From Eunapius fragilis (taxonomy: Eukaryota > Porifera > Demospongiae > Spongillida > Spongillidae): DNA of 64,000 bases. The stretch lies in contig OY811972.1 in NCBI GenBank assembly GCA_963681505.1, forward strand, positions 9,132,775 to 9,196,774, in the 5' to 3' direction. Of this stretch, positions 8,137-49,391 are shown piece by piece. Position 1 is the stretch's first letter. Each line of letters begins with the position of its first letter. The notes below the pieces were generated by a model. That model had not been told where the DNA came from and did no database searches. It saw nothing but the letters and a program-made list of their open reading frames with translations. The translations under genes were made by a program, and so were the position numbers.

Positions 8137-10998
8137 TCAAAGAGCTACAAAGTCCTTGTAGCGTTGTGGCTTCCTCACAAGTCTTCCACTTGATGTCCTG
8201 ACCTCTGCCTGTTGTCTGTTCTGGACTTCCACTTCCTGAGCTCGTTTGGGAACTTCTTCCAGTGATGCAGGAGGCACACCTGGTTGTCCTTGCAGCCCAC
8301 TGTTATCATCATCAGGCATCTGATTGTTCACATGTTCCTGTCCACTCTCTGAATCCACTTCCAAATCTGATTCAGATTGATCTTCAGGATCATCAGCTCT
8401 GGGAGGTCGTAGATGCTTCCTGTTACGTCTGTAAACTTTGCCACTAGCTGACTTAACAAGGTATGATGCAGGTACTTCTGCTGTGTCCAACACCTTAACA
8501 GGTTTCCACTCGCCTTGGACCTGCATCCACGCATTTTCACCTTTTTGCAGAGGTATCATTGGTTTGGATCCTTCATCATAGTAGAGCTTCCGTTTCTGTT
8601 GTTCTTGTTGTAGGTGTGACTTCACACAATCAGGGTTAATTGTTCTGGGCTCCAGTTGAGTTGCCTTTACTGGGAGTGAGGTGCGCAGTCGTCTGCCCAT
8701 AAGCAGTTGCGCAGGAGAGCCAATGTCACCCACTCTTGTGTTTCTTAGCTCTAACAGGCTCAGGTAAGAGTCTTGTCCATCCCTTTTCGACTTATTCAAC
8801 ATTCGCTTAATAATCTGCACCGACTTTTCAGCTAGTCCATTAGATTGAGGGTGGTAAGGGCTAGAAGTGATATGGGCAAAACCCCATTCCTCGGCAAATT
8901 TGCTGTATTCCATTGCTGAGAATTGTGGACCATTATCGCTTCGTACTGACTTGGGTATCCCATGTCTGGCAAAAATGGATTTTGTGTGGATTATCACTAT
9001 GCTGCTGGATGTGTTTGGTAGTCTGCAGAACTCGATGAACCTGGAGTAATAATCCACACTCAATAGATAATCAGCACCATCCCACTGGAACAGGTCTGTA
9101 GCCACCATGTCCCAAGGTCCTTCAGGGATCTATCCTTGTACCATTGGTTCCTTCTGGTTTGAATACTGGTAGTTCTGACATGCATCACACTTTTCCACCA
9201 TTTCTGTGATTTCCTTGTTCATGCCAGGCCAAAACACAACTTCTCTGGCTCGTTGAGTGCACTTGGTGATACCCATGTGACCCATGTGGATACGCTGCAG
9301 GATGTCCTGTTGCAGACATGATGGTATTATGAGCCTCTCTCCCTTTAGCAAAACTCCATCCGCTTCGGATAGCTCATCCCTGAAATTCCAGTACGGACGC
9401 ACCTCCTCTGGAATCTGTGAGTGGCTGTCTGGCCAACCATTCAAGATCATTCTCTGCAGGATGCGTAGGGATTTATCATTCTTTGTTCCATCTCTTATTT
9501 CTTGCATTCTTTTGTCAGTAACTGGAATGTTACTAATAACCAGATTAACAGCACAGGTCAACTCTTCTTCCATCCGATCTGAACTACAGTCTGGTATATA
9601 CGCCCTCGAAAGTGTGTCTGCTATGTTCAAATCCTTTCCTGGTTTGTATCGCAAAATGAAGTCATATTTCTGGAGACGAAGTAGCATACGTTGTAGTCTT
9701 GGTGGGGCATGACATAATGCTTTCTGAGTGATTGCTTCCAGAGGTTTGTGGTCCGATTCCACATCAACTGTTTTGCCATATGTGTACTGGTGAAATCGTT
9801 CCAGTGCAAAGACAACTGCTAATAGTTCTTTCTCTATTTGCGCATATCTTGTCTCAGTGCTTGTGAGTGCGCGAGATACATAGGCGATGGGCCGTCCTTC
9901 CTGTAGCAGCACTGCACCAAGGCCTGACTGTGACGCATCGCAGCTAACTGTGACCTTTTTTTGCACATCAAAGAAAGCAAGTACAAGAGCAGTTGATAGT
10001 CGTGTCTTGATCGCCTCAAATGCTGCTTCCTGTTCATATTCCCATATAAATTGTGTGTCCTGTTTAAGAAGCTCACGAATAGGTTGGGTAATCCTTGACA
10101 TGTCTGGAACAAACTTTGCCACGTAGTTGAGAGTTCCTAGTATTCGTTCCACACCCTTCCTGTCTGTGGGAGGTGGCATCTCACTTATGGCTTTCACTCG
10201 ATCCTTGTCCAGAGATATTCCCGCTGCACTTATGATGTGGCCTAAGTAGGTGACTTGGGGTGCACCAAATTTACACTTCTCCATGTTCAAAGTGAGATGT
10301 ATATCCTGACACCTTTGGAGTACTGCTTTCAATCTTTTGTGGTGCTCTTCTTCTGTTTTACCCCATACCAGGATGTCATCAATGTCCGTCTCGACACCCT
10401 CCAAATCACCAAAGTTCTGTGTCATACGTTTCTGGAAGATTTCCTGTGCCGACTTGATGCCAAAAGGCATCCGTGTGAAGCAGTACCGGCCAAAAGGACT
10501 GTTAAATGTTGTCAATTGTTGACTTTCATCATCAAGAGGAATTTGCCAATAGCCATGATTTGCGTCTAGCTTGGAGAATATTCTGGCCCCAGACAGACGA
10601 GTGGCAATGTCCTCCAGAGTCGGCAGTTGAAAGTGTTCTCTCAGGATGGCTTTGTTCAATGGTCTTGGGTCCAGGCAGATGCGAAGCTTCTTGCTTTTGG
10701 GTTTTTCCACCACTACCAGGGAATTCACCCAGTCTGTTGGCTCCTCCACTTTCTTGATGACTCCTAAAGATTCGATATTGTCCAGCTCGTGTTTCAACCT
10801 GTCCCTAATTGCTACTGGTTGGTTTCTTGGAGGACAGATTACTGGTGTCACATCCGGATCCACTTTGATGTGGTAAGATTTGTTTAGGCATCCTAAACCC
10901 TCAAACACCTTGCTATATTGACCGATGATACTTTGCCAATCAACGTTCATTATCACCTTAATGACATGAAGATCCTGGGATGCTTTCAGCCCCAAAAT
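8137..10998 (-). pseudogene. gypsy pol: protease end, RT, RNase H, integrase; one in-frame stop
   Basis: One minus-strand reading frame codes for the retropepsin C-terminus (PILGL), then RT with FSKLDANHGYWQIPL and the catalytic IDDILVWG. RNase H follows (CDAS, ESDHKPLEA), then the integrase HHCC finger (ending CDACQ) and integrase core with DLF, SDNGPQF and the Glu of NGLAEKS. The frame is open for about 950 codons except for one TAG at 9,130-9,132, between the finger and the core. I infer this is a recent nonsense change, because the same frame resumes at once. Pol lies in -1 relative to gag-protease, overlapping at about 10,986-10,998. No canonical slippery heptamer is evident, so either programmed shifting or a small mutation is possible. 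Reverse-strand frames here are shadows. Confidence 0.9.
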
Positions 10999-12076
10999 TG
11001 GGTGGTCCTCACTATGTAGAACTCTAATGGGTGACCCTGTACTATCAGCTCACATCGTCCTATTACTGATAGTGCATCCCCAGTGTAGCCTATGAGCCTA
11101 ATCTTTGCAGTGTCAAGGTGAGGTCTTTTACTCATTTGTTTGAAAATGTTCAAGGGCAGTACATTCACTTGTGATCCTGTATCAATTTTGAACTTGATAC
11201 AAACTCCATTTACTTGGAATGTACTGAAGCATTCATTATTGCTGACCACCACACCATTCTCCTTGATAGTCCCAACCATGTATTGCTGTTTGCCATCGCT
11301 TGTTTCTTCATCTTTGCCTATGGTTGATACCTGTCCAGATCTACATAGTTTCGCAAAATGATTCATCCTGTGGCATTTATGACATTTCCTTCCCCGTGCT
11401 GGACAACTATCCCTGCCATGCTGGAGTCCACAGTTCCGACACCTGTCTATTTTCCCATGTGGTATGCTTGATTTTTCCTCTGAACCTGCAGGCACTGGTT
11501 TGACTGCATGAACCTTGGGGTCTGCCTTCTCTTCACTCATGGACTCTAACTGTTTCTTTGACTCCTCAGTACTGCGACAGATGTTAATGGCTTTGTCCAG
11601 AGTGAGGTCGTGTTCCCGCAGTAGACGTTCCTTCACCCTATCTGAGTTTGTTCCGCAGACGATCCTGTCACGGATAAGGTCATCCTCGAGTAGCTTGAAA
11701 TCACAGTCCTTTGCAATTAGTCTTAGAGCAGTAACAAACTGGTCAATGCTTTCCTCGGCTGCCTGCATCCGAGTATTAAACTTGTACCTCTCCACTGTTA
11801 CATTGCGCTTTGGTTTGCAGTAGCTTTCAAACTTCGCAAAAAGGACGTTTATCTTATCTCGCTCCTCGGCTATTAGGACAAAACCGTTAAATATGTCCCG
11901 TCCCGCCTGACCGATGATATATAAAAACGCACTGCATTTTTCCTTTTCGGACTTGTCGGACATACTTAGCTCAATAAATAGTTCCATCGTCATCCGCCAC
12001 CGTCGCCATTTCTCCGCTACCGAGGTGCCGTCCACTGTTGAGAAGTCCATCTCGTTTGGAGGTTTGATGTGTTCCA
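10986..12076 (-). CDS. gypsy Gag with zinc knuckles and aspartic protease
   Basis: The start chosen is the first ATG after the primer-binding site (MEHIKPP...). An upstream Met lies inside the LTR and is unlikely. An N-terminal capsid-like region rich in charged residues is followed by two CCHC knuckles. The first is CRNCGLQHGRDSC and the second CHKCHRMNHFAKLC, and both should bind the RNA genome. A retropepsin active site FKIDTGSQVN follows. The frame ends at TGA before the last protease motif, which is found in the -1 frame at the start of pol. About 363 residues, intact. Confidence 0.88.
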
Positions 12077-12084
12077 TTTGAAAA

Positions 12085-12101
12085 TCCCACTTCTGACACC
12101 A
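12085..12101 (-). promoter_or_regulatory. Primer-binding site, tRNA-Leu type
   Basis: The minus-strand sequence TGGTGTCAGAAGTGGGA abuts the 5' LTR. Its complement ends ...CTTCTGACACCA, which fits the 3' end of animal tRNA-Leu (acceptor strand plus CCA). The tRNA identity comes from recalled tRNA sequence and was not searched. Confidence 0.75.
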
Positions 12102-12185
12102 TGTACTGCTCTTATTTGTCAACAGACCACTGCCAATTACACGATGCACACTGATTTCAATGGCTACCTCCTAAATCACACACTA
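12102..12185 (-). repeat. 5' LTR of gypsy element, proximal part
   Basis: This matches 7,992-8,075. It is cut at TA (12,184-12,185), where a 7.3-kb element has inserted. The LTR resumes at 19,463-19,465 and ends at 19,515. Confidence 0.9.
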
Positions 12186-12319: not shown

Positions 12320-15013
12320 CAGTGGCGTAGCCAGGAATTGTACGGGGGGGTTTCCGGCAGGACGGGTGGGTGCGGGAGGGGGCGTAGCCAGCTCCCCCAT
12401 CGGGGTCTGGGGCGGAGCCCCAGAAGCTTTGCAACTTTATCATTATGAAGTCATGAAATCCTTTGATTTTGTCACGCAGGTAGTGTTATAATTATATAAT
12501 TAATATGCATGCCGGCATATCGTGGCAATTTATTGCTATATCTATTTTGTGTATAGTAGCAGTCAAGAAGCACCGACAATGATGCATGAGCGCATGCAAT
12601 GTAAGGTACATTTTCTGTATATATGATGAATAATGCATGATGTTTTACAGTTTCCAAGAGAATGACTATGATCCATTAAACTAACAGACAGGTGATACAC
12701 AACATTTACAATTCATCACTGAGATTCAGTAGCATCCTACGAGGATGTTGCCTTGCAAAAATATCTATAATTTCTTCCACGTTTAAATCCATATCATAAT
12801 GGATATGCATCAATGCCAAACCGGATAGTCTCTCTTCTCCCATAGTTGCACGTAAATATGTTTTCAGACGTCTAATAACACTGATGCTTCTTTCGCACTC
12901 ACAGGTAGTGACAGGTAGAGTACAAATCACCCGGAGTAGGCAATTAATGTTAGGAAACATCCTTTCTGATGCATGCTGCAAACTCTTTGATGGAGTGTTT
13001 GGCAACTCATAAGGATAACTGCTCCACTTGCAGTGCCATAAACGTAGTTCTTGCTCAAGATAAGACACATTAGGAATATATTCATTGTAAAATTCCAAAT
13101 CTTTCTTCAATGATTCTAAATGATTTTTTTGCAGAAGTGCATTCCTCATAAACTCAGATGGTACAATCTCCATTGCTCTTATAGCTTTTATTTGCATCTC
13201 ATGCAGAAAATCTGCTATTAAGATGTGACAGCAATTCATCGAAAAATGGGATAGAAATAGTCCTCCTATAATACTCCTCTGCTGTTTCAGCTGGTGTATT
13301 GCATCTATGAATCTGGTGCTTACACAATCTGGGCATTGATGGTGGTGATGCATTTATAGTATCGCCAAGAGCTACAGCACAATCATACCACTTTTTATGT
13401 TCGACATCAATACCACCACGAATTTGCAAAAGAGCTTCTTTAACTGCAGCCACCTCCTTGTAAGCATTACAGATATCTTGCAGGGGACTCTGCAATGACA
13501 CTGTTAGCCCTTTTATAAATCCAAATCCATGCTTAACCACAACAAATGATATGAGAAACTCAAATTGAGTGATTGCTCTCAAAAGAGTAGCAGCCTTTTG
13601 TGAAGATTCAGTATTCCAACCTGGTTCAGTACTAATAACTTCCATGCTGCTAATAACTGCTGGTAGGAGTTCATAAAATGTTTCATATGCAGTGATTCTA
13701 GCAACCCAGCGGGTTTTACATAGATTCACGAGCTTCAATCTGGTACTATCAGTCTTGGATTTTATTTGTATCTCAAGCTCTCCTTGCCTCTTGGGAGATG
13801 AGTTGTAAAATATTGAGATTTCTTGGAGTGTTCCATGCATATTTCTGATCGATTGAACACTGCAAGCTGCAACAACACAAAGATTTTAAGCATGAGCTGC
13901 ACTATGAAAATAAAGAGCCATTGGGTATACTTGCTGGATGATAGCAGCTGCACCTTGATACTTACCAGCCATGTTCCCTGCACCGTCATAACCCTGTCCA
14001 CATAGATATTTCAGGTCCAGCCCATATTTTCTCAGAGCATTTGTAATTAAATTCGATACTGCCTCCCCAGTGGTACCATATTCACACAAAAAAATGATAT
14101 AAATTCTTCTCTGACCAACCCAGCTTGATCAACAAATCTGAGAATGAGTGACAGTTGCTCTTTATTTGCCACATCTGACACTTCATCAGCACACACAGAA
14201 AAATATTTAGCTGCTCTTACTTCCTGTAGAATTTTTTCTTGCATCCATTCACCTGTAGCATTAATTAGGTCATTTTGAATTGTAGGTGACTGATATTTAG
14301 CATTCTTTGGTGCAGAAGAAAGGTGATCCTTCAGAACCATATCACCAGACTCTACTAATAGCCTCAATAATGCCAAGAAATTTCCAGGATTACCTTCAGA
14401 AGAAACACTGCTTTGCATGCTCTCATCATTCTTGAATGACATGATCTCATGATGGCCTCTTAGTGCTATATTTTGCCTACCACAAAAGAATATAACTTTG
14501 AGAATACCTTTTAGAAACTCACGATTTTTTCTAACCTTAGCATTCGCTTGATGTTCAAGTTGGTTTTGTACCGACAACAGACCTGTCTGTAGCATTGCTA
14601 CAAACTGACAAGTATCACTCATAGAGGTGTTATGTGACAGCTGCAGACTATGTTCTGTTAATGTTTGTTTGGCACGTGTAAAATTGGTCATTGGAGTTGT
14701 ACAAAGCTGACCAGTAATAGACTTTGTTTTACCAAATATGACACAATTGATGCAAAATCCACCATCACAAGATATCGAGTATGAAAGCCAGGGGAACGTT
14801 TCCAACCAAATATGTTGAAATTTTCTTTGTTTTGTGTACTCTAACTTAGATGGAAACTTAAAGTGAGATGCAGGCCGAAATGCATTTTTCAATAGCCAAT
14901 TCTTTTGCTCATTACTGAGCTGTATTACATCTGTATTACATACCGTATATAAGAGGGGGGGGGGGGGGGGGGGGTTTCCGGGCAACGCGGAAACAATGCT
15001 GGCTACGCCACTG
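12320..15013 (-). mobile_element. hAT DNA transposon (2.7 kb)
   Basis: The terminal inverted repeats CAGTGGCGTAGCCAG (12,320-12,334) and CTGGCTACGCCACTG (14,999-15,013) match 15 of 15. TCATT directly flanks both sides (12,315-12,319 and 15,014-15,018). That gives a 5-bp duplication, not the usual 8. A poly-G tract of about 20 bases at about 14,955-14,975 lies near the right end. It contains a broken transposase. Confidence 0.88.
12706..14985 (-). pseudogene. hAT transposase (TTF finger, DUF4371, hAT dimerisation), frameshifted
   Basis: Read on the minus strand, a TTF-type zinc-finger region with CDGGFCINCVIFGK comes first. A catalytic-core stretch (CADEVSDVANKEQL), a second acidic motif (GQGYDGAGNMAG) and a C-terminal dimerisation region (TCECERSISVIRRLKT, GEERLSGLALMHIHYD) follow. 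The frame shifts near 14,090, has a TAA at about 13,886 at a Leu-like position, and shifts again near 13,205. So this copy cannot make full transposase. Relatives are often annotated as ZMYM- or THAP0-like proteins in animal genomes. Confidence 0.85.
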
Positions 15014-15018
15014 TCATT

Positions 15019-15980
15019 ATCCGATCGGTAGATGATAACAAGATGGCCCGTTCATGAGTCATCCTTGGGCCAATCATGATACATGTGCAATATTGACCCA
15101 AGGATGGGCTGGCATTATTGGATCAAGAATGATAGCTATGAATTCGTTAAATAGCGTGGCTTTGGCTAACCGTGCACTACCGTATAACCATCACCTTTCC
15201 TCCCCCCCCCGGCCCCCATCCCCTCCCTTGTATCAGGTTGATAATTTTGTAAACTTCTTTTCATCAAACATACACGAACAAACACAAGCAATGGTGATGC
15301 AAACTGTACGCCTCTGTAGTCCTTTCGACTGGTAGACGGCAGCGGTATCTCGTAACTGATCATGATACGCAACCTGTTTAAAAACGAACACGATATGATA
15401 ACACCGTTCAATTGGTCATGTACTTACCTCTATGGACTTGTGCAAAGCGATAGAGAGTATGCTTACACGTTGCAATGCTGTAATGGATGCTACGTAGCGA
15501 GTTAAGCTATGCACAACTTACCTAACCACTTGTGAGAGCTGGATTGAGACAAACACCAATAAAGATAATACACAAACGGGAGTTAACCATATCCGTGTTC
15601 GAGAATGGCCGGTCTCAGATCGACGTACAGTAGGCATCTCGTACTACATCGTACACTCTCCAACAGAGAACATGTACTCACACACATTGATAGGCAAAAG
15701 TAAGCTACCTTCGAATTTGTAGTTAATCTGCCGCCATCCACTTTCAAGTGTCTCGCGGCAAAGTTAGCAGGAAACTCGATCGCGGCTCCTATAATAAAAA
15801 AATAATGGAATTGAAGAGCAGTACCTTTTGGAAGCCCAAGTTTTTCTTTGCTTCTTTCCCCCTTTTCATGATTAATACACCTCAGGAAAGAGAAATGTGA
15901 TTCGTAGCGCGGAGCATTTTTGAAAAACATCACGCGCGTATTATATTCTAATTGATGCTCATTTTTGTACAATATTAATG
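15019..15980. other. Unassigned part of composite element
   Basis: No recognised gene. A 129-codon minus-strand frame at 15,583-15,972 has no motif I know. A C-rich tract lies at about 15,203-15,225. Confidence 0.4.
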
Positions 15981-20785: not shown

Positions 20786-21054
20786 CTAAAGTCTATACAA
20801 TGTCTTTAATTGTTCAGCCAGGACCACATGGTCACAGGATGAGAGGGCATCAATCAGCTTCTTCCAGGAGCATGACGTGTCTGATTCCAACCAGAACTGA
20901 ACCAGGTCATATCTGCAATCTGCAACTTGTCCACGATTATTAATATCAATTTCTTTTATCTTTGAAGGGCTAATTTGTAATTGGATTCCCAGTGACTTCC
21001 AATCCACCATGTTTTTAAGAGCACTGAGTATATTTTTATGAGTAAAAGTATCAT
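20786..21054 (-). CDS. Death-domain exon of Roc-COR-Death gene, copy 1
   Basis: Final exon. The acceptor TTTCTTCAG is followed by ATGATACT, and the split codon (g plus at, Asp) keeps frame with the upstream exon. The Death domain shows ILSALKNMVDWKSLGIQL, then RYDLVQFWLES, SWKKLIDALSS and the end LAEQLK. Death domains make homotypic contacts in apoptosis and innate immune signalling. The stop follows ...TLYRL. The copy 2 Death domain differs at only a few positions. Confidence 0.88.
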
Positions 21055-21115
21055 CTGAAGAAACACAGAAATAAACATGTGAGATATATTTAAGAAATTG
21101 TAACAATCATCTTAC
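21055..21115 (-). other. 61-bp intron
   Basis: It has the GTAAGA donor and a CTTCAG acceptor. Phase 1 matches on both sides. Confidence 0.85.
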
Positions 21116-22826
21116 CATTAATACGACCTCCTTTCTCCCCAATCCAGACACTGTGCTGAGGTGTAAGTACAGCAACAGTGGAGCAGGAGTTACATGCAGC
21201 TAGGTTTGGTTCTTCTTCAAAGGGTGTCACTATACCTTTGCATGAATCATTGGAACAGACAAATCCATCTTTGATATTTCCCCATCCTTTGTAAGCGAGA
21301 ATACTACCACATCTCCTGATGGCTTCATGAATTAACTTTCTAATTTTGGGACATGCTTTAGAATTATCCCATGCAGAATCAAGATGCACCTTTATGTGAG
21401 CTGTTGAATCAACAATAGTGAATTCAGCTGGAAATTTTCTACATTTAAAGGAAACGCAGTTCCTATAAAGACAAACTGGTACTTTATTCACCTCTAAAAC
21501 TGAACATTCTGTCTGAATGGAAGAAACTAAGCAACTGAACAATCCAAATGGAACAAGATCATTTTGGAGGTGCAATAGGAGAGGTTGTGCTGATGCATTA
21601 TGTCGTCTGATGCTCTCAGGACTAAGAGGGTCCAAAAGAGCAGGCATCAAGTAGTCACCACCTTCCAATGGAACCATAATGAAGAGGTGGCACATGAGGG
21701 CAGTGAAATGCTCTACATTAAATGCATCATCCAAAAAATGCTTCTCGAAGCGATTAACATAAAGAAAATCTGTGCTGACAATACCATGGTCCCTGAACTT
21801 AGAGCACCATGCATTCTTTACACCAGCAATGCCCAACACTTCACCTCCAGCCAGCTCATGTTTACACTGGACTAGGTCTGAGATGATGTTTAGGATAACT
21901 TGGGGATCACAGAACACTATGTTGCGAAGAGAGGGTACATTATGGTACCATAGCAACAGGTTATATTTGACCATGTGCAGGAGAGCTGCTTCTAGGGCTT
22001 GCTCATCCATACCTAAGCTCCGTGCCAGCTGAAGACATCTATGAAGGCTGATAACACCTCTTACAGCTGTATGCTTTATCTGCATCTCTAGACCAAACCA
22101 CTTTATAGGCAGGGAAGGAGTGGCTTCATCATTGCAGTGATCTACTATTGCATGCCTTAGCTCACCAGCTACCTTTTGGTCATAGGAATCAGGGTTTGCA
22201 CCATTCATATCCCAGATGACGTCCACACCATTCTTGCATATCAGGTACTCTGAATTCACCATTTGCTTGATGACATCACCTTTTCCCCCCTTCGTCTCAG
22301 AACACTTATCCTCCTCATCGTGGTGAGTTCCTACTACAAACAAATGAGGACGGAAATCTCTGGCATGTGCAGCTCTCACACACTGCTCCAACACCTGCTT
22401 GTGGGAAGATGGAGACTTGTACGGATTTCCTACTGGTTGACTGTCCTTTCCGTAGAAATAGATCATAGGGCAGTGGTTGAGACTTTCAGAAAGGTTTATA
22501 GCATAGAGAACAACAGAAACATCTTGGATAAAGGCAGGTAAGAGTTCAAGAAACTGGGGCTGACCACCACTGTCAATGAACTGGACCAATCTAACGTTTA
22601 ACACTTTCTTACAGCTTATGTTTTTGAATGCTTCTATGAATCGACTATCTACTTCTCCAGTAGCTGGGTTATCAAACATGTCACGGTCACTAAGATGCTC
22701 TGCTTCCAATGGTTCTAGGGTAGATGGTTTAGGAGCTGTCTTAGCTGGTTGAGAACTTTTATTAGTGAGGTTCTCTGAAGCCATTGGAAGTGATAGAGGT
22801 TGAGGTATCTGGGTTTTTGTAGGTGT
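21116..22826 (-). pseudogene. Roc-COR exon, copy 1, 5'-truncated
   Basis: The open frame begins at the repeat junction. It has the Roc switch II region FIDSGGQPQF, the G4-like box VVGTHHDEEDKC, a COR-like helical region and a C-terminal Cys cluster (CSNDSC, CNSC). The Walker A loop and upstream Roc part found in copy 2 are absent, because AT-rich repeat replaces the gene at 22,826/22,827. A Met in MASENL near 22,785 could serve as start, but the product would lack nucleotide binding. I call it a truncated gene, or a gene whose 5' exons were displaced. The part at 21,454-22,826 is about 98% identical to copy 2; the part before the intron is much less so. Confidence 0.75.
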
Positions 22827-22829
22827 AAA

Positions 22830-24510
22830 AAGTGACCTACAGTACATGTACATGTACATGTTGCGCATATTTTTAATTAAAGTTTTCATATTCTAAGAGA
22901 CACTTATGGCCTCTACAACTTTTTTCTTATGCACTGGAAATTAGTCTGTCCATCATGGAGTTACAGTGGCCTGAATTACTTGGACATTTTAATTGCATGC
23001 ATCAATTTAGACGCTCCTTCCTAGAAAATGTTTATAATATGCACTAGGTCCCTTTTCACTGCCATGACCCCATATATTGGTAACACACACTTTGCACAAT
23101 TCTTAACCACGACACAAATTAACCCAATAGGTTTGTAACTACTTGTTCACAGTTGTGAAATTTACCATATATCAAACATACATGTGTCTAAACACATGTA
23201 TGTTCAATATCAATATCTACACAATTTACTAAGTGTCCATACATGTACTTGGTGAACACACACAAATACAATTATTGCTGAAATATGGTGAACACAAATA
23301 TTCCATTTGTGAGCCTTCACCAATTATGAAATAGGCTGTGTTCACATGTGTACATGTGCTACATGCATGTGTATACATGTACATGCAGCACAAATGAATT
23401 ATTATCAGGCTGTTTTTGCATGTGTTCATCAATTGTAACAACGGGAGACTTCACTGATTATTAGGCAAATTGTGTGTATGCAATTATTAGGCTGTGTTCA
23501 GGTCCAACAGTGCATTTCAATTACAATAATTCTGTGGTTCATAATTATTAGGCTGTTTGAGGAATTATTAAATTGGAGTAATTATCACGCCTACAGGTGT
23601 AAAAGTCAGGTGCATCATTTGTGTTAATGTCAGTTATGTACATTTGTACAATTATTAATTAATAGGCAGTATTCAACAATTGTGTAACATCACCACAGTC
23701 CATGTGTTCACTAATTATTAGGCTGTGGACCCCAATAATTAAATCTACCAGTTTTCTATGTACAGCAGTTATGGACAATTATTATCAGACTGTTTTGCAT
23801 GTGTTCATCAATTGTAACAACTATAATGTACTTGGGTTCACCAATTAGGGTGACTTCACTGATTGTGTAAAATTATTGGGCCAATGTTCACAAATTGTGT
23901 GTATGTAATAATTAAGCTATGTTCACCAACAGTGTATTGTACAATTTTATTACAATAAATTGTGTTAATGCTAAGTTCACCAATTGTTGCTTCTACATGT
24001 ACATGGTATATTGTACAAATATTGTGTGGTTCGCCAATTGTGTTAATGCTAAGTTCTCCAGTTGTGGAACATTATTGCTTCTACATGTGTACATGGTGTG
24101 AGTACCAATTATATGCTATTGTGTTTACTATACAATTGTGTAAAACTATTTCACGTGTGCTCTCCAATGTTTACCAATTATATGCTATTGGTGAACACAC
24201 AGTTTACATAATTGTTGACCACAAGTTAGTTAACCCAATAAGTTATCAACTGAATATGCTAAATGGTAAAATGATGAACCTATACATGTAGTACAGTTTA
24301 GTGAATTCAGCCTCATCATTTAACATACATGTACTTGGTGAACACACACAAATACAATTTGTGAAAGTAGTACAGTAACTCAGTAGCATGGGAAAAAACT
24401 CTACATACATGTACAATAGTACATGTGTAGAATTATGAGTACACATGTGTACATGTAGTGTACCAATGATGCAGATACAGAGAATATCTTCAGAAACATG
24501 TATGTACATT
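22830..24510. repeat. AT-rich repeat field, middle block
   Basis: It opens with AAAAGTGACCTACA...TTCTAAGAGACACTTA, which also occurs at about 5,300 and 32,250. It is composed of the same CAATTGTG/AATTATTAGG motifs as the left block. No gene. Confidence 0.8.
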
Positions 24511-24657: not shown

Positions 24658-25771
24658 CAGGGTGATTGAAAAGTCGTGCAAAATTTTTGAATTGGTATAA
24701 CTCCAGAACTGAAAAATGAAAGATGTTGCTGTTTAAACCAAAAAATATACCAATGACCAGCTTAACCTTAATTCTCCAGGTTCAAGTCCTACGTGTAGGA
24801 CCAATATTTGAAAATTCATTATAAATACATGTAGATATGCAGTTTTTGGCATCCATTTCTCTACTGCTGTTTGATGTGTCTATCGTGCTACATTTACCAA
24901 TTGTCAGTCTATTTTTTTAATCACACCCTTGGTTACACGATGCTAATAATACGGTTCTTTAAAATGCATTATGTAGAGAATTTAATTGTCACAGAAAAAA
25001 TTACGAATAGTATAACATTTTTTGAATATTTTTTTAAAGCATGTGTGTGCTTTTATATACATTATATGGCAGTGTTTTTACTCTAATTGGTTTTGCCATT
25101 TTTACCGAAAACACACTGTACGTTTTCAAAATTTTGCCCATTCACTTGGCTATTCCTGCGCAACATGCGTCTGACAAATACCTATCATTCATAAGCTTGT
25201 GGAGTTAGCAATTTCCAAATCGACAATGTACTTTTTTATATGCTTAGTGCAAAAGACCTGTCTTACTTTTAACATGTTGCTCTGATCTTCCCAACATTAC
25301 TTCTTAGTACTTTAAGTTGCTTTGCGATTTACCGCAAATACATCTTTTAGCAATGCAGTATTGATTGTATTTGACAATCTTTTAAGAATTGCACGAAAGT
25401 AAAAATATTTTCTGAATTAATAACCATTTCTACAGTACAATGAGATTTTGGTTTGTTCTTTGATCATATGAGTTTGCTAAAAAATTAACTTTAACTTGCG
25501 TCCTACGCGTAGGACAATGCGTGGGATAACGTGAGATTAAAGGTTAAATTGATGAGTAGTTATTATAATTATTGCTCAGTTTATTAACACCTTGACAATA
25601 ACAACATTCAACACGACACAGCTTGGTGGTGTGTTGATCAATAAACTGAGCAATAATTTCTCATCAATAACTTTAAGCTGGTCATTGGTGGTTTAAACAG
25701 CAAAATTTTTTATTGTTCAGTTCTGGAGTTATACCAATTCAAAGATTTTGCATGACTTTTCAATCACCCTG
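24658..25771. mobile_element. TA-flanked inverted-repeat DNA transposon, no transposase
   Basis: CAGGGTGATTGAAAAGT at the left and ACTTTTCAATCACCCTG at the right are inverted. The similarity runs about 110 bp inward and TA flanks both sides. This fits a Tc1/mariner-type non-autonomous element. Inside are the palindromes TCCTACGTGTAGGA and TCCTACGCGTAGGA and an 18-bp inverted pair at 25,569-25,586/25,640-25,657. No long frame. Confidence 0.8.
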
Positions 25772-26148
25772 TATAATTTGTTTTATAGCCTTAAAAAAAA
25801 AAAAAAATAGAAGTACCATTTACATGTACACTGTAATTGTGTCTCATGATGTTTATAAATAGATCGGTAATTTTCATAAGCATATACTACTGTAGCTGAG
25901 TTCTAGAGTGGATTACAAAATTGTGAAATGAGCATCCAATATCCAAGGTTTACAGGCTAGCTGGTTCAAATGTTACATTATCCATGCATGTATTGTATTA
26001 AAGTTTACAAAATAAAGATGAACAATTTTATTCTAAAATCTATCACCAATTCCCAACAAGGATTTATTCCTAAGATCCAACAGAAACTAATAATATAGTG
26101 GATAATACAAATGTAAGAAACTGCAATAACAGGTGAACATCAACAATG
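25309..26148. repeat. 840-bp direct repeat, left copy
   Basis: It is nearly identical to 28,509-29,351. It covers the right half of the TA-flanked transposon and about 375 bp beyond. The two copies bracket the 2A-Death gene. Confidence 0.85.
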
Positions 26149-26187
26149 TCTGTTCGCGCAACTGCAGGTAGGTACAGATTTGTACGC
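26147..26187 (+). repeat. 41-bp inverted fragment of the 2A gene's exon 1/intron 1 junction
   Basis: It is the exact reverse complement of 28,073-28,113, which spans the first splice donor (CAACTGCAG then GTAGGTAC) of the minus-strand gene. Here it lies on the plus strand behind an ATG, as a small first-exon-like piece. Confidence 0.85.
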
Positions 26188-27525
26188 ATTTGTTCTCTTA
26201 ATCAGCACCTACTAATGTAACTTATGTGAATCAGTTGGTTGTTACATTGTGATGGTGAACCCTGATTTCAAGATGAAAAAGCCATCATTGCATCACTAAA
26301 GAAAATCTGGGACTCCACAGATAATTACTACACAGGTGTGGCTCCAATATAAGTTGTCAGGGTGCAGTAAGCCACACTGAGGTAGTCTGTTTCAAATCAT
26401 CTATGACAATGCGTAGTCTAAACCACATCCCTAATCTTAGCCGACAATGCATGGTCTAAATCAAGAAAACTAGATATAGGTTTGCTTTGTTCTTTCCCCA
26501 CTCATCTTTGTTCCTTTCCTTTTTACACCACAACCTTGTAATCTGCGCCCTTATTTCTATAATACCCAAACTTTCACGCTTTCATAAAGTTAATAACGGT
26601 ATGCAGTACCAGCTGCAAGCTCAGAAACAGGACAAAATCTGGTCCCCGAGCACATGCAGCTGATAGTAAAGAGATATGTTGTATAAAACTTGGACAAACA
26701 ACTAACCTTCACAATGCTTTTCCACCAAGGTAGACCCCTGATTGGTTAGTGCTGATTGTGATGGACCTTCCGAAACAGAGAATGATAAAGAAAGTAATCA
26801 ACATAATCACATTCATCATTCAAAGTGCCAATGCTAGCCAAATACAGCAACTGTCACTAAATCAATAACATGGCTAAGAAGCTGTATCGGGTGTTTTATA
26901 CCAAATAACTCCTTGAAGACCACTTAAAGTTGCCAGTGAGAAGGCTCACTTTTTCTCCAACTCAAGCATTGTGGTGACATTGAAGTATGGTTTTCTGATC
27001 ATGGCTATTAGCAAAGGGGTTTTAAAGACTCTGCTTGTTAAATTTATTGCAGATACATCAAGGTGAGCATCACCTGCAGAGTTAGAGGTTTATATACTTT
27101 GTCGCCATTGTACATCAACACTAATTCAATGTTCTGGTTGAAATTATAGAACCAGACCCAGACCCATGACAATACAGCCCTGAGTATGAGAAGCTTTTAT
27201 GTATTAGGGAGCGACTACTGAAGACCTCGTTGTACAATGATTTACTGCTGGTGCACCCTGGTTGCGTGAAGCTGAACTGGATAAAATGGCTCAGGGGAGG
27301 GTGGGGGAATTTCACAGGCATCGAGAGATGAAGGGGGGGGGACCCCTAAGATCCTGGATTGTTCAAATAATATATATGTATACATTGTCGAGTGGTAAAA
27401 GAGGTCCACACGACTCAACATACCCTAACACACATTTTATCTCCTATTCTCATTACTTATCCATCATCACTCCTATTGACGTAAGTAAGCTTAGTTACAG
27501 TAGTGTACACAATGATGATGCTTAC
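26188..27525. other. Possible 3' part of 2A-Death gene; no exon recognised
   Basis: No confident coding exon. Small frames at 27,121-27,321 (minus) and 27,190-27,330 (plus) have no known motif. A G-run lies at about 27,332-27,341. Confidence 0.4.
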
Positions 27526-27810
27526 TTTTAACAGACACTTGTGATACCAATTCCTGCACTGCCTCGGCAGCCTGAGCATTTTGTACACCTTTTAGTACTT
27601 CAATCAACACTCTGTATGTGGCTTTACTGCCTTTCATTTCCACCCACTTCTCAAGCATTTTATCTCTTCTATTCTGTTCACTGTCTTCATCTCGTTTTAT
27701 GTCTTTAGTGGCCTGGGCACCCACCAGACGTTTTCCTACCACCTCCCAGTCAAAGGCAAACGTTGCTATTTTATACATATCCTCTTCACTGCACTGCGAG
27801 TCCAGTGGGT
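27526..27810 (-). CDS. Death-domain exon of 2A-Death gene
   Basis: The acceptor CTCCTCATAG is followed by ACCCACTGG, and the split codon (g plus ac, Asp) keeps frame with the 2A exon. The Death-like domain runs IATFAFDWEVVGKRL, then DKMLEKWVEMKG, TYRVLIEVLKG and AAEAVQELVSQV, about 90 residues with the usual Trp positions. A donor (AAAA then GTAAGC) ends the exon. If it is not spliced, a stop comes at 27,491 after 12 more residues. No next exon is found. Confidence 0.8.
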
Positions 27811-27871
27811 CTATGAGGAGAGTAAAGGCACATCAGTTATGGCGGTAATGAATATGGCATACTCATGTCAC

Positions 27872-28019
27872 CTTTGCAGTCCTGCCCTAGAGGTCCAGGG
27901 TTCTCTTCAATATCTCCAGACATTACTAACAGCAAGTGTACTATCGCCATAACCGAGGTGACCACCACCATCAATAGCACCTTCCCCGCTTTTCCGATCA
28001 TTGCATGAACCACGCCTAT
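27872..28019 (-). CDS. Signal/2A-peptide exon of 2A-Death gene
   Basis: The acceptor GTGGACCACAG precedes ATAGGCG and the donor after TGCAAAG is GTGACA. It codes 49 residues plus one base. An internal Met begins a hydrophobic stretch (VLLMVVVTSVMAIVHLLLV) that runs directly into SGDIEENPGP, which fits the 2A consensus D-x-E-x-N-P-G-P. In 2A peptides the ribosome skips the bond between the last Gly and Pro, giving two products from one frame. A hydrophobic signal fused to 2A is known at the N-terminus of some marine invertebrate immune-type proteins, where skipping decides whether the downstream part enters the secretory route. Frame with both neighbouring exons is consistent. Confidence 0.85.
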
Positions 28020-28092
28020 CTGTGGTCCACGTCAGAAACTATGTCAGCAACAGACAACTACCTGCAACTAACGCGTACAAATCTGTACCTAC

Positions 28093-28341
28093 CTGCAGTT
28101 GCGCGAACAGACAACGACTCCATCTTGTTTTTAATCCGGAGCGTTCTGAGTGCCAGGACACCTTCAAGGTATTGCAACACGACGACCTTTCAGTTACTAG
28201 TACTCGACTGCTCCCGTATTTCCTTATCCACAGCTTTCTCAGTTTCAGCTTCACTAATTCGGTATTATTTTTATTTCTATTCGCATTTCGACTGTTGAAA
28301 GTTCCGATGCGAACTCGATAAGTTTCCACATCGACACCCAT
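28093..28341 (-). CDS. First coding exon of 2A-Death gene
   Basis: ATG at 28,341, then 83 codons in phase 0 to the donor CTGCAG/GTAGGT. It begins MGVDVETYRVRIGTF and is very basic (many Arg, Lys, Asn). It joins the 2A exon in frame (FAQLQ then IGVVHAM). Translation could instead begin at the Met just before the hydrophobic stretch, making this exon leader only; I cannot tell which. Upstream sequence to about 28,508 may hold the promoter. Confidence 0.6.
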
Positions 28342-28508
28342 GGGTTGGAAGAGCGTCGCGTGAGTTTAAAAGCGCTACTGATAACAATATGAATACGTAA
28401 TTAACGCATGGTGTAAACAACTGATTAGTGCGTTGGTATATAATACATGTTATCTCTGGTCTAGCTATAACAGCCAGTTTTTAACGGTCCGACGTTACGC
28501 CTGCTACA

Positions 28509-29351
28509 ACTTTAAGTTGCTTTGCGATTTACCGCAAATACATCTTTTAGCAATGCAGTATTGATTGTATTTGACAATCTTTTAAGAATTGCACGAAAGT
28601 AAAAATATTTTCTGAATTAATAACCATTTCTACAGTACAATGAGATTTTGGTTTGTTCTTTGATCATATGAGTTTGCTAAAAAATTAACTTTAACTTGCG
28701 TCCTACGCGTAGGACAATGCGTGGGATAACGTGAGATTAAAGGTTAAATTGATGAGTAGTTATTATAATTATTGCTCAGTTTATTAACACCTTGACAATG
28801 CTTTGATCAACATTCAACACGACACAGCTTGGTGGTGTGTTGATCAATAAACTGAGCAATAATTTCTCATCAATAACTTTAAGCTGGTCATTGGTGGTTT
28901 AAACAGCAAAATTTTTTATTGTTCAGTTCTGGAGTTATACCAATTCAAAGATTTTGCATGACTTTTCAATCACCCTGTATAATTTGTTTTATAGCATTAA
29001 AAAAAAAAAATAGAAGTACCATTTACATGTACACTGTAATTGTGTCTCATGATGTTTATAAATAGATCGGTAATTTTCATAAGCATATACTACTGTAGCT
29101 GAGTTCTAGAGTGGATTACAAAATTGTGAAATGAGCATCCAATATCCAAGGTTTACAGGCTAGCTGGTTCAAATGTTACTTTATCCATGCATGTATTGTA
29201 TTAAAGTTTACAAAATAAAGATGAACAATTTTATTCTAAAATCTATCACCAATTCCCAACAAGGATTTATTCCTAAGATCCAACAGAAACTAATAATATA
29301 GTGGATAATACAAATGTAAGAAACTGCAATAACAGGTGAACATCAACAATG
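28509..29351. repeat. 840-bp direct repeat, right copy
   Basis: It matches 25,309-26,148 with a few indels, for example GCTTTGATC in place of ACAACA near 28,800. It includes the right terminus of the TA-flanked transposon (ending 28,977). Confidence 0.85.
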
Positions 29352-43558: not shown

Positions 43559-43839
43559 CTATGGTACAGGAGTACACAATGTCTTTGTCTTTAATTGTTC
43601 AGCCAGGACCACATGGTCACAGGATGAGAGGGCATCAATCAGCTTCTTCCAGGAGCATGACATGTCTGATTCCAACCAGAACTGAACCAGGTCATATCTG
43701 CAATCTGCAACTTGTCCACGATTATTAATATCAATTTCTTTTATCTTTGAAGAGCTAATATGTAGTTGGATTCCCAGTGACTTCCATTCCACCACTTCTT
43801 TAAGAGCATTGAGTATATTTTTAAGATTAAAAGCGAGAT
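43559..43839 (-). CDS. Death-domain exon of ANK-NHR-Roc-COR-Death gene (copy 2)
   Basis: Last exon. The acceptor CTTTCTTTAG precedes ATCTCGC, and the split Asp codon matches the preceding exon. The Death domain reads ILNALKEVVEWKSLGIQLH, then RYDLVQFWLES and SWKKLIDALSS. The C-terminus (KTKTLCTPVP) differs from copy 1. As the C-terminal module after Roc-COR it matches the position of the Death domain in DAPK1. Confidence 0.88.
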
Positions 43840-43956
43840 CTAAAGAAAGGAAAATCCAAATTAACTACATGTAATAATGTGTTACAACATCATACACCAA
43901 CCAAGGTAAATACCAAACACATAAGTAACCACGGTATATAATGTGAGGCAACGCAC

Positions 43957-45970
43957 CATTTGAATATTTTCTTTCCTCTGTAATCCATATAGTGTGATTA
44001 GAGGTAAGGTCCATGTCGGTAGAACAGCTGGTACATGATGCCAGGTTAGGGTCACTATCATATGGTGTGGAAACGCTTTTGCAAGATTTATTAGAACAGG
44101 CAAAGCCATCTTTGAGGAGCTTCAAACTATGATAACGGAGAACATCACTACATTTTTTAATACCATCATATATCAGCTTTCGTATTCTGGGACAGGCTGT
44201 GGGAACGTCTCGTTCAGAATCAAGGTGCACCTCTATGAATAATGAGGAATCAATAATGGTGAATTGGGCTGGAAACTTTCTACATTTGAAAGACACGCAG
44301 TTCCTATAAAGACAAACTGGTACTTTATTCACCTCTAAAACTGAACATTCTGTCTGAATGGAAGAAACTAAGCAACTGAACAATCCAAATGGAACAAGAT
44401 CATTTTGGAGGTGCAATAGGAGAGGTTGTGCTGATGCATTATGTCGTCTGATGCTCTCAGGACTAAGAGGGTCCAAAAGAGCTGGCATCAAGTAATCCCC
44501 ACCTTCCAATGGAACCATAATGAAGAGGTGGCACATGAGGGCAGTGAAATGCTCTACATTAAATACATCATCCAAAAAATGCTTCTCGAAGCGATTAAAA
44601 TAAAGAAAATCTGTGCTGACAATACCATGGTCCCTGAACTTAGAGCACCATGCATTCTTTACACCAGCAATGCCCAACACTTCACCTCCAGCCAGCTCAT
44701 GTTTACACTGGACTAGGTCTGAGATGATGTTTAGGATAACTTGGGGATCACAGAACACTATGTTGCGAAGAGAGGGTACATTATGGTACCATAGCAACAG
44801 GTTATATTTGACCATGTGCAGGAGAGCTGCTTCTAGGGCTTGCTCATCCACCTAAGCTCCGTGCCAGCTGAAGACATCTATGAAGGCTGATAACACCTCT
44901 TACAGCTGTGTGCTTTATCTGCATCTCTAGACCAAACCACTTTATAGGCAGGGAAGGAGTGGCTTCATCATTGCAGTGATCTACTATTGCATGCCTTAGC
45001 TCACCAGCTACCTTTTGGTCATAGGAATCAGGGTTTGCACCATTTATATCCCAGATTACGTCCACACCATTCTTGCATATCAGGTACTCTGAATTCACCA
45101 TTTGCTTGATGACATCACCTTTTCCCCCCTTCGTCTCAGAACACTTATCCTCCTCATCGCGGTGAGTTCCTACTACAAACAAATGAGGACGGAAATCTCT
45201 GGCATGTGCAGCTCTCACACACTGCTCCAACACCTGCTTGTGGGAAGATGGAGACTTGTACGGATTTCCTACTGGTCGACTGTCCTTTCCGTAGAAATAG
45301 ATCATAGGGCAGTGGTTGAGACTTTCAGAAAGGTTTATAGCATAGAGAACAACAGAAACATCTTGAACAAAGACTGGTAAGAGCTCAAGAAACTGGGGCT
45401 GACCACCACTGTCAATGAACTGGACCAATCTAACGTTTAACACTTTCTTACTGCTTATATTTTTGAATGCTTCTATGAATAGACTATCTACTTCTCCAGT
45501 AGCTGGGTTATCAAACACGTCACGGTCACTATGATGCTCTGCTTCCAGTGGTTCTAGGGTAGATGGTTTAGGAGCTGTCTTAGCTGGTTGAGAACTTTTA
45601 TTAGTGAGGTTCTCTGAAGCCATTCGAAGTGATGGAGGTTGAGGTATCTGGATTTTGGTAGGTGTAGGCTTCAAATGGTATGCACTTGCAAGGACCTGCA
45701 TCAGCTTAGCCTCATCAATAACCTCCCACCTACCTGGATCATTCTCATCCACACCTGCTAGTATGGACTTGACAGAGCCGACAAATGCCTGTACTGGGTT
45801 ATCTGCCAGTCCTGTGCTAACACGACCGGTGGATTTATCATTACCATCTGGTAGGAGGAGCCTCTTGAGGTGGGTCTTCCCCACACCTGCTATCCCAAGC
45901 ACCAGGCATTTGATAATCGATATACTTACTGAACCTTCCTTCATAGCTTCTTCATACAATTTTGCTGCGT
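43957..45970 (-). CDS. Roc-COR exon of copy 2, with P-loop; 2-bp frameshift
   Basis: A single large exon from acceptor CTCTATCAG to a GTGCGT donor. It starts DAAKLYEEAMKEG, then the Walker A loop GIAGVGKTH and a linker rich in Ser, Pro and Thr. Switch II (FIDSGGQPQF), the G4-like box (VVGTHRDEEDKC) and the COR-like region follow, ending in a Cys cluster (CSNKSC, CTSC) and HTIWITEE. Roc is a Ras-like GTPase that in ROCO proteins always precedes COR, the dimerisation module. Compared with copy 1, two bases (TA) are missing at 44,850/44,851, so the frame breaks after RSLG. That is a real lesion or an assembly error. Entry phase (g plus ac) matches the NHR exon upstream. Confidence 0.85.
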
Positions 45971-46677
45971 CTGATAGAGATAGAGATAGAAAATCATATT
46001 TACGCAAAAGCAACACACTTGAAGATCATCATCACTGCATGGGATTATGTGTCTCTTTTCATCAGATCTTAAGTGTGTTTGGCCCAATAATACCTCACAG
46101 TTGCCACTTCATAAGGGTGGTAAGGGTTGTTATATTTTATGTACTTCATATTACATCATCATTTAGAAAGTGCTCATTAAATTACCATATATTAGACAAC
46201 AGTTAGAATTGTAGCCACCCCACCAGCCCAATGACGAATGCACATGTAGGGAGATGGTCATCACACTGGTTGGTTGTCATCATTGCAACAATAAAAATTA
46301 ATGAATCTTAGCTAATGATACTGTGCTCAAATTTTTTTAAATTTCATCCCACTAAGTGTACCAGTCATGGTCCTCCGTATTAAGTGTGAAATGGTACACT
46401 TCCCTCTAAATTTATTGTTACATTACCCAAACTAGGCAGAGTTACAAACAAATAACTCAAAGGTAAAATCCAAAGACAACTGGTCTGACCCATCAGAAGC
46501 CAACATATTTAGAGTCAGCTGAGTCACTTCTCAATGCAATAGAAAAAAGAAGTGTTTACTATAAGTACATGTACTGTACAAGTAACAGGACTACAGTGTA
46601 CATATACATAAAACTAAGCTCCAATGCAATATACAGGTCTAAACAACAGGTGACATGGACAGCTTACCAGCAAGCTG
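45971..46677 (-). other. Intron between NHR and Roc exons
   Basis: GTAAGC donor, polypyrimidine CTCTATCTCTATCAG acceptor. Nothing else recognised. Confidence 0.7.
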
Positions 46678-46950
46678 CTTTCTCTGCTGATCAAGAGCAA
46701 TTTTATCAGCCATGACATGAAGGGGACTTCCCCCACTCCAAGGTGTCAGTGGTGTTAGGGATACCTTCACACATTGACCATACAGGTCCACCAAACCATA
46801 CACACCCATGGGGACAGTGCAGGGAAGTGTGACCATGTGGGCACCATTAATGAAGAGGTGCAAGGTACCAGAGTTTGTGTACAGCAGTCCAACTGTGTCC
46901 CCAACCTTTAGGTCATGGAAATTGATTTCATCAGGCAGTTGATCCACTTC
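46678..46950 (-). CDS. NHR domain exon 3 (C-terminal half)
   Basis: Phase 0 start (EVDQLPDEINF). It holds the NHR hallmarks VGDTVGLLYTNSGTLHLFI and VPMGVYGLVDLYGQC, then a short helix-rich linker to QQRKQLA before the Roc exon. Neuralized homology repeats are protein-interaction folds, best known in the E3 ligase Neuralized. No RING finger is seen here, so a ligase role is not implied. Confidence 0.88.
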
Positions 46951-47451
46951 CTGGTGATATTAATACATATGTAAGTGTTGGCATGAGGTGCATGTATTTA
47001 TATGAACCAGTTCATTCACTGCAGATGTACTATTGATGTACATCTAATGCATGTCAATAAACATTTCTTAATTGTACAGGTACAAGCCCATGTGGAATAA
47101 TTGGTGATTAAGTACATAGTATCACTACATGCTCAATTTAACATGTATTTTGTGCCCTGTAGCAATACAAGGTGTTTCTCGATCCCTCCCTCTCCCTAAA
47201 GAACATGTCAAGAGGATCACACTCAGAATGCTACTGAATATATTTGGCAGCATCTTTCTATTGCTATCCAGAGGGAGCCTCATATTGACCAGCTAGTGAA
47301 TAGTTTGATTCACATACACGTACATATACATACATACAATAATCAATGAGACGTACATGTACAATTGTCTGTTTAATACAATGGCAGCATGGACTACTCT
47401 ATAGCACACACAACAGATGTACACATGTACATGAACTAAACAGTGTCATAC
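46951..47451 (-). other. Intron within NHR
   Basis: GTATGA donor, ATATCACCAG acceptor; phase 0. No other signal. Confidence 0.75.
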
Positions 47452-47628
47452 CTGCCCTCCAGCATACAGAGCTAAGGATGGTTTGCCATTAACTGATGAT
47501 GTCACAATAAAACTTTGTCCCAACAACTGCTTTACATTGTCCACAGAAACCACCTGTGCTGTACTTTGTGAAGTGACTCCAATGGACAGAGAGCCACTCC
47601 ATTTGGAGTCCACCTCCATAATCTCCAC
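47452..47628 (-). CDS. NHR domain exon 2
   Basis: Phase 0 to 0, 177 bases. It contains VEIMEVDSKWSGSLSIGVTS, the typical NHR W-x-G-S-L-x-I-G-V-T core, and continues to LALYAGGQ. Splice sites CATCAATAG and GTATGA. Confidence 0.88.
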
Positions 47629-48065
47629 CTATTGATGTGTAATCAGTATGCATTGTACAATATCAACTGCATGAAATATGCATGCATTCAAATGCACTTG
47701 CAATTTTATCAATTGCCAGAATTGCATGTATGCATCTGTATACATGATGTACTAGAAAGGCACCAACAGGATGAAATAAAGCCATACAAAATCAGATATA
47801 CTGTACCAACAAATAAGATATTTTACCCCACAAACCAAGAATATAAACATAGATGAGTGCAGATATATTTATACAGGTATGTGAAATGAACACTGTAATA
47901 TGTACAGTATATTCAATGTCATCCCAAGGTCAATTGTATACCCGGGTGTATAATCTAAAGCAGCCAAGATAACATGCACGAAAGTCACAACACTCACAAC
48001 TGAGGCACCACATGTCAGTGAGGGACAACAGTATGTGGTGACAATGTCTAAACCTGTCGTCTCAC
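47629..48065 (-). other. Intron within NHR
   Basis: GTGAGA donor, ATCAATAG acceptor. No other signal. Confidence 0.7.
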
Positions 48066-48201
48066 CTGAAAGATGACATCACTAGGAAGAGGAGCAGAAG
48101 TAATCACAATGCCTCTCGAGTTGTTATTAAATCTGCAGGCCACTTGTCCTCCATGTTCAAGTCTGATATTGTCACCATGTGTGGAGGCAAATGTGACCAA
48201 C
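48066..48201 (-). CDS. NHR domain exon 1 (N-terminal strand)
   Basis: A strong CT-rich tract and CTCAATAG acceptor precede it. It reads LVTFASTHGDNIRLEHGG then RGIVITSAPLPSDVIFQ, the start of an NHR fold. Entry phase needs two bases from the preceding exon. Confidence 0.85.
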
Positions 48202-48645
48202 CTATTGAGAGGGAATATTGGAGGGAAGAGAGAGGGGAGGAGATAGAGTGGAGTGTGAAGGATCATGAATACATTTGGTGGTACAAATGTTTACTCTTTG
48301 TGTTCCACTGGCTGCTTTATCTGTAAACAGACAAATATACATTTCATAATGACATGTACTCCAGACCAAACACATAAAAATCATAAGCATACATCTCCTA
48401 ATTCAAAAGCAACAACAGTGCTCCTCCCCATACTTGTAGTATCCTGACCTCTTATCAAGCTCCAACCACTATTACCCTTGTTATGTAACAGTAGTGCAAT
48501 TGATTGTCTGTACATGTGTACATGTAAATGTACGTATTGTGCTGCAAGGTGGCTCATTTGTCCTCTTGTGTTGCCTTGGTAACCTACATGCAATTACTAC
48601 ATCGATTACCTCATCCCCAGACCACACATAACCTAGACTACTCAC

Positions 48646-48750
48646 CTCTGAAGGCTTCAGGTTATTCTGTTCAGTTAGGCCATCATCCAGAAGTAGTACA
48701 TGGGAATATACATCATTGATGGTATACAACAACACATGCAACATTTGGTG
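48646..48750 (-). CDS. Candidate linker exon before the NHR
   Basis: 105 bases between a weak acceptor (TTTCCATGAG) and a GTGAGT donor; the frame includes LLLDDGLTEQNNLKPSE. Its phase 0 end does not match the phase required by the NHR exon at 48,066-48,201, so an exon is missing or this one is wrong. Confidence 0.3.
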
Positions 48751-49391
48751 CTCATGGAAACACTACATGTATATCATCAGATGTCTTTATTTTATCTTTA
48801 GTGCCTATTGACAAAACTCAGATTTAATAGTACACGATTTCAAAATGGATTTTATTTTCTTATGTCTCTGCGTTTAATCATAGCCAAATACATAATTACG
48901 TACACACCATACAAATAACACACATACACTATAATTCACTGGCTACGGAAGCCAAATCATGGGCCTGCAAAGTCTGAGCATTTTGCCTCATTAACATAAC
49001 CAACAAATGGCAATTTACAGCTCATGTAATGAAGTTAATGAAGGTTGATGGTTGTCTGCAGCAGACAACTAGTACTTTTCAGACAATCAGTTATGTTAGA
49101 CGTACATTACGTGGAGGTCACAAGTGAGTCACACAAGCAAGTAATTACATGTAAACAAGGGTTATGCAAAAGCACCTCACAGTACAATGTGGTCAACAGT
49201 GATACAGTTATAGATGATACATGTTGGTCTGGCAAAATGTACATAGCAAATTATCAAACATAGTTACGGATTTATAAATCATAAAACGGTTGATATTGCA
49301 GGGATTACAGCTTAACACACCTGAGATCCAAACATCACACCAGCACACACATTAGGTGTCTATGTACATGTACATGCACATCTAACCTAAC
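48751..49391 (-). other. Intronic, nothing recognised
   Basis: AT-rich, no conserved frame. Confidence 0.5.

Follow-up and report, generated by a model that had tools for sequence, protein, structure and literature searches.

Analysis of the window, that is, the whole 64,000-nucleotide stretch of Eunapius fragilis DNA studied here, revealed three minus-strand exons of 249, 148 and 285 nt (Table 1). Their phases agree (0, then 1), and the concatenated reading frame contains no stop. The two introns begin with GTAGGT and GTGACA and end with CACAG and CATAG, respectively. Three minus-strand exons with matching phases had been described in an earlier note on this DNA, and our analysis recovered the same arrangement. 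The exon 2 product is MIGKAGKVLLMVVVTSVMAIVHLLLVMSGDIEENPGP. It includes the sequence SGDIEENPGP, whose core DIEENPGP is in phase with the exon for a Death domain.

Table 1. Features of the gene model and of its flanks. Positions are those of the window, and the features are ordered in the direction of transcription, except for the CpG-rich stretch.
Feature	Position	Strand	Details
CpG-rich stretch, putative unmethylated promoter	27901..28850	.	CpG observed/expected 1.64
Exon 1 (earlier drawing)	28093..28341	-	Donor CAG/GTAGGT, 8/9 consensus positions; coding frame uncertain
Alternative start codon	28121..28123	-	Best context of the three, strong: AACAAGATGG
Intron 1	28020..28092	-	73 nt, GT-AG
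Exon 2, leader and 2A	27872..28019	-	Joins exons 1 and 3 in phase
Start codon within exon 2	27999..28001	-	2A frame with all 6 listed intron 1 acceptors
19-residue hydrophobic segment VLLMVVVTSVMAIVHLLLV, signal-sequence-like	27924..27980	-	Preceded by two lysines
2A core DIEENPGP	27891..27914	-	Motif scan
Intron 2	27811..27871	-	61 nt, GT-AG; donor AAGGTGACA, 7/9 consensus positions
Exon 3, Death domain	27526..27810	-	Codon score, Pfam, structural model
Stop codon if intron 3 is retained	27491..27493	-	Reading frame
Candidate exon 4	26950..27073	-	Acceptor CTAACTCTGCAG, donor AAAAA/GTGAGC; right phase, open frame

According to the motif, ribosomes are predicted to skip the bond that joins Gly (27896-27894) to Pro (27893-27891). 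DIEENPGP was the sole match to [DGCN][VI]ExNPGP in the six frames of the 64 kb, and one other NPGP, near 19472 on the plus strand, was bare and without the core. By base composition, 3.3e-5 occurrences of the canonical motif and 1.6e-4 of the expanded motif are expected in the window, and 0.16 of the canonical motif per 300 Mb. The hydrophobic segment stands directly ahead of MSG and has a mean Kyte-Doolittle value of 2.83; values of 2.83 or more were found in 38 of the 44,361 stop-free 19-mers of the six frames, the segment itself counted. The hydrophobic stretch and the SGDIEENPGP that the earlier note had seen are real, and their occurrence is beyond chance. Judged from its length, the hydrophobic stretch could be an anchor rather than a cleaved signal.

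Exon 3 encodes a predicted Death fold. Pfam placed PF00531 (Death) at about 27757-27551 with an E-value of 4.8e-7 and 30.3 bits, against a gathering cut-off of 22.6. The AlphaFold model of the exon, whose alignment comprised two other Death domains from the window, showed six helices with a pLDDT of 86.1. Pfam and the six-helix model confirm the Death domain that had been proposed from the letters. Upon Foldseek search, the top 28 rows were all Death-domain entries by description (FADD, TRADD, Fas/FADD, RAIDD and others). The best match was 3ezq_B of the Fas/FADD complex with a TM of 0.80, a chain which we take to be FADD, and 0 of the 73 matches were below an E-value of 0.001. A comparison of sequence only ranked Fas first among PDB entries (E 0.035). 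Identity to the Death domains of two COR-like blocks in the same window was 17-19%. To our knowledge, no metazoan Death adaptor among the matches has a 2A leader.

The Roc-COR-like and Death exons at 22.8-20.8 kb served to train the codon scores; as this set is small, the scores are weak tests. The own frame of exon 3 topped the six frames with 0.31 bits per codon (0.39 for the paralogue control). Downstream of its own ATG, exon 2 scored 0.10 bits per codon, the fourth of six frames, so that this exon rests on its motif and phases. The frame of exon 1 was likewise fourth of six, with 0.01 bits per codon. By themselves, therefore, the codon scores do not support exons 1 and 2. At the exon 1 locus, two frames of the plus strand likewise lack stops over more than 100 codons. 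Among 2000 Markov copies made from the 651-bp exon 1 region, 1.7% had an open stretch of at least 108 codons on one strand. Exon 1 had been drawn earlier as the coding sequence of a basic leader. With a codon score of about zero, open frames on the plus strand and other starts that fit, it is unproven as an established coding sequence, and part or all of it may be 5′ UTR.

Three ATGs are candidates for the start of the leader, at 28341, 28123 and 28001. The first has a poor context (CAACCCATGG) and yields an 83-residue basic product from exon 1. The second is in the 2A frame if exon 2 begins at 28015, where the tandem acceptor CAGATAG offers a site four bases downstream of 28019, and the product then begins with MESLSVRATAGVVHAMIGK; together with the 28019 acceptor, the same ATG would open an out-of-frame upstream frame. 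Counted up to the 2A glycine, the leaders from the three ATGs are 125, 51 and 36 residues long, respectively, and the two compact ones are closer than the 125-residue one to the 26-residue leaders of sea urchin proteins. At the tandem acceptor (28015-28020, minus strand), each choice brings a different upstream ATG into the 2A frame. Since the acceptor selects the in-frame upstream ATG in this way, a change of splice site could be enough to alter the leader.

The CpG content was scanned in 400-bp windows, each of which had to contain 10 CpG or more. The mean observed/expected ratio of the whole 64 kb was 0.35, and seven peaks reached 1.0 or more, of which the one spanning the 5′ end of the gene model was the highest. 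In animal genomes depleted of CpG, peaks of this kind are usually the sign of an unmethylated promoter. On its composition and position, this peak is probably the promoter of the gene.

The locus is repeat-rich and rearranged. The gene is flanked on both sides by an 840-bp direct repeat (25309-26148 and 28509-29351, 98.6% identical). An inverted piece of 48 bp terminates the far copy (26147-26194 versus 28113-28066, 95.8% identical). It matches the last part of exon 1, splice donor included, as template switching might produce. On the minus strand, 8140-12170 holds an LTR-type retroelement with reverse transcriptase, RNase H and integrase domains, and 12709-15051 holds hAT-like transposase remnants, with DUF4371 and the hAT dimerisation region in separate ORFs.

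Non-LTR retrotransposons, including those of sea urchin, are known to carry 2A sequences (PMC4981915). Given this and the repeats on both sides, the 2A at this locus might have been inherited from such an element or from another mobile element, and it would then be a recent capture or lie outside any functional protein. We consider this origin very unlikely. Reverse transcriptase was found in one of the 30 Pfam queries, which were a subset of the ORFs, and it belongs to the LTR-type element at 8-12 kb. Moreover, exon 2 has no second copy within the window, it is in phase with the Death exon, and it sits at the promoter-like CpG peak.

Since exon 3 stops in phase 1, one base into a codon, the gene extends past 27526. 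It must either splice onward or run to the stop at 27491. The earlier note had drawn the gene only as far as 27526 and had called the product an adaptor; as the gene runs past exon 3, its end needs correcting, and the name of adaptor is not supported. Candidate exon 4, if unspliced, is followed immediately by a TGA (26948-26946), and its frame was the top of six by codon score, weakly (0.10). Against this candidate, an AATAAA is located inside it at 27048. No Pfam family matched its product at E-values up to 1. An ankyrin repeat in exon 4, suggested by eye, was not supported: Pfam gave no match, and a profile built from 7 of the window's ankyrin units gave an E-value of 5. If the 2A skips, the product downstream of it would count 102 residues up to where exon 3 stops, 144 when ending with exon 4, and 113 with intron 3 retained. 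No NACHT or LRR was found among the 30 Pfam queries, which represent part of the ORFs of the window, and the 3′ exons are provisional.

A block with COR-like and Death parts is located at 20789-22892 on the minus strand. Pfam gave it a Death match of 23.2 bits, above the cut-off, and a COR-A match with an E-value of 8.9e-7 and 29.3 bits versus a cut-off of 35.3. Its paralogue at 43.6-46.0 kb has an extra P-loop part, with a Roc match of 14.6 bits that is under the cut-off. Neuralized and ankyrin exons, which extend to 62.8 kb, precede this paralogue. The whole region 43562-62828 (minus strand) appears as a large gene or a gene cluster, in which the window profile picked out no fewer than 12 ankyrin-repeat exons, followed by Neuralized, P-loop, COR-like and Death parts. 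Five out of the five ankyrin exons given to Pfam exceeded the Ank cut-off. Part of this region consists of 4.4-kb near-identical tandem blocks. Its order of domains suggests the architecture of a ROCO-like receptor, in which Roc and COR-A are under the Pfam cut-offs.

The 2A-Death exons could be the 5′ end of the block at 22892-20789, and the leader would then target a ROCO-type receptor with Death domains at both ends. Both are on the same strand, exon 3 needs a continuation, and the block lies downstream and has acceptors in phase for a direct splice from exon 3. Nevertheless, we regard this connection as unlikely. The block is without the P-loop part of the paralogue (44847-46025), and its homology to the paralogue ends near 22826 at repeat sequence. 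Nor did the window ankyrin profile find any same-strand ankyrin exon between exon 3 and the block, where candidate exon 4 had the E-value of 5 given above; the Neuralized scan covered some of the ORFs in this interval.

Relatives were searched by pattern in bacterial, archaeal and viral contigs. For the protein of exons 2 and 3, none was confirmed out of 33 matches in bacterial and archaeal contigs or out of 3 in viral contigs. None was confirmed for the Roc-COR-like exon (7 matches in bacterial and archaeal contigs) or for exon 1 (60 matches in viral contigs). A degenerate pattern, G-D-(I/V)-E-x-N-P-G-P, occurred in 2 stretches of viral contigs. Because the searched collections are bacterial, archaeal and viral, the missing relatives say little on animals. 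Rfam gave no matches at the gathering score, and no tRNA was found. In the open-licence literature, a sponge 2A leader was not named in the titles or abstract beginnings among the matches listed, and no paper was found on ribosome skipping together with Porifera. Rao et al., in Cell Reports in 2025, reportedly treated eukaryotic and viral 2A sequences and may already list sponge genes, including this case. Odon et al., in 2013, may list sponge genes as well.

Taken at about two chances in three, our main reading is that this is a cellular animal gene with a dual-purpose N-terminal leader, both signal-like and StopGo/2A, before a Death domain, the skipped product being cytosolic and the unskipped one ER-directed. 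After the proposed splicing, most ribosomes would skip the Gly-Pro bond and release the leader. The Death-domain product would then start with proline, its expected N-terminus being PLGQDCK, carry no signal and be cytosolic. When the bond is formed, the hydrophobic segment of the fusion would be exposed and direct it to the ER. By that route its Death domain, whether lumenal, secreted or anchored, would have no access to cytosolic partners. The gene may function in immune or death signalling.

The ribosome exit tunnel has been described to hold 30-40 residues (PMC2978324). Counted back from the P-site glycine, the hydrophobic segment takes up residues 11 to 29, inside the tunnel, with any of the three starts. 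If the leader is compact, its signal would not yet have emerged at the moment of bond or skip. The choice would therefore probably precede targeting, and the ratio would depend on the leader sequence and on the ribosome's state rather than on targeting. As the hydrophobic segment would not have left the tunnel at the skipping decision, we hold a splitter of fixed ratio to be more probable than a regulated switch. The translational switch proposed in the earlier note is not upheld on this ground, and no sign of regulation was seen. In other constructs, a chain that is already translocating can inhibit 2A (PMC2978324). By analogy, this could be applicable here if the long exon-1 leader is real and is itself targeted.

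Signal-plus-2A leaders had been mentioned in the earlier note for some marine invertebrate immune-type proteins, and the sea urchin NLRs bear this out. According to Roulston et al. 2016 (PMC4981915), these proteins have a signal plus 2A before the DEATH domain, and both skipping and dual targeting were tested. The SpNLR2A leaders are 26 residues long and form the N-terminus of DEATH-NACHT-LRR proteins. In vitro, the wild-type leader skipped at about 80%, a qualitative estimate of the authors. In HeLa cells, the wild-type product was located in the cytosol and a skipping-dead mutant mainly in the Golgi. Substitution R11A caused a substantial drop in skipping and L21V a lesser one, and changing L13 or L14 also lowered it. 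The authors proposed that stress on eEF2 might alter the outcome (PMC4981915). The reading of a cytosolic product upon skipping and a secretory one without it thus gains a tested precedent by analogy, but the key residues of the sea urchin leader are kept only partly in E. fragilis.

The sea urchin results could also mean that skipping is near-complete here, in which case the leader would be removed, the secreted form would be irrelevant and the hydrophobic segment would be merely an L-rich context of the 2A. This is a possible reading, although we lean against it. It is in line with the skipping and the cytosolic product of the wild-type sea urchin leader, and also with a 2026 survey (PMC12846837), in which L-rich upstream hexapeptides ending in (A/S/C)G, paired with D at p12, are a StopGo upstream motif. 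However, the 19-residue run after the lysines exceeds the six positions of this motif. Furthermore, the Arg that is important in sea urchin is absent, which would favour some read-through.

The mechanism of our main reading is known in kind, and the variant is in a different gene and probably in a different phylum. Among the literature examined, signal-plus-2A leaders had been tested only in sea urchin NLRs, and the sponge gene would be a putative second case. It would also provide a natural leader with a different residue, Met11, at a position known to tune skipping. If true, this suggests that splitting one death-fold protein between the cytosol and the secretory route is ancient or has been invented repeatedly. 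More tentatively, and we hold this to be rather doubtful, the order of leader, 2A and Death might be an old animal device beyond bilaterians, or a cassette spreading among immune and cell-death genes, with its sequence setting the cytosolic and secretory shares.

Compared with known Death adaptors (FADD, Fas, RAIDD and TRADD), exon 3 has the six-helix Death fold in common at about 20% identity. The 2A itself resembles the L-rich StopGo classes 2 and 6 of the survey (PMC12846837) in its core D(V/I)ExNPGP, in the hexapeptide LLVMSG ahead of it, and in having G at p11 and D at p12. LLVMSG was assigned to the L-rich class by eye. The 2A differs from these classes by an E in place of the associated S at p15, where E is among the preferred residues of the variable core position, and by its place in a cellular gene, as StopGo is mostly viral and rare in cellular genes (PMC12846837).

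A further close likeness is to the SpNLR2A leaders: in both cases a hydrophobic and signal-like leader, here putatively at the N-terminus, runs up to SGD(V/I)ExNPGP and is followed by DEATH in an immune-type protein. The leader of SpNLR2A6, which we translated from a primer printed in PMC4981915, is MDGFCLLYLLLILLMRSGDVETNPGP. In an alignment anchored at the C-terminus, 10 of the 26 residues are identical, with L13 and L14 kept. V12 of the sponge leader matches a natural sea urchin variant reported to be as active as the wild type (PMC4981915). Position 11 is Met here versus Arg in SpNLR2A6, and position 21 is Val. Because Met11 and Val21 sit where change lowered skipping in sea urchin, skipping may be weaker here; by analogy we expect this 2A to skip, perhaps less completely than in the sea urchin case. 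Unlike SpNLR2A, the leader is in another organism, has a longer hydrophobic run, is separated from the Death domain by an intron, and is accompanied by no NACHT or LRR match among the scanned ORFs. On a Death-domain gene with no detected NACHT, it would most likely be the same device as that of the sea urchin NLRs.
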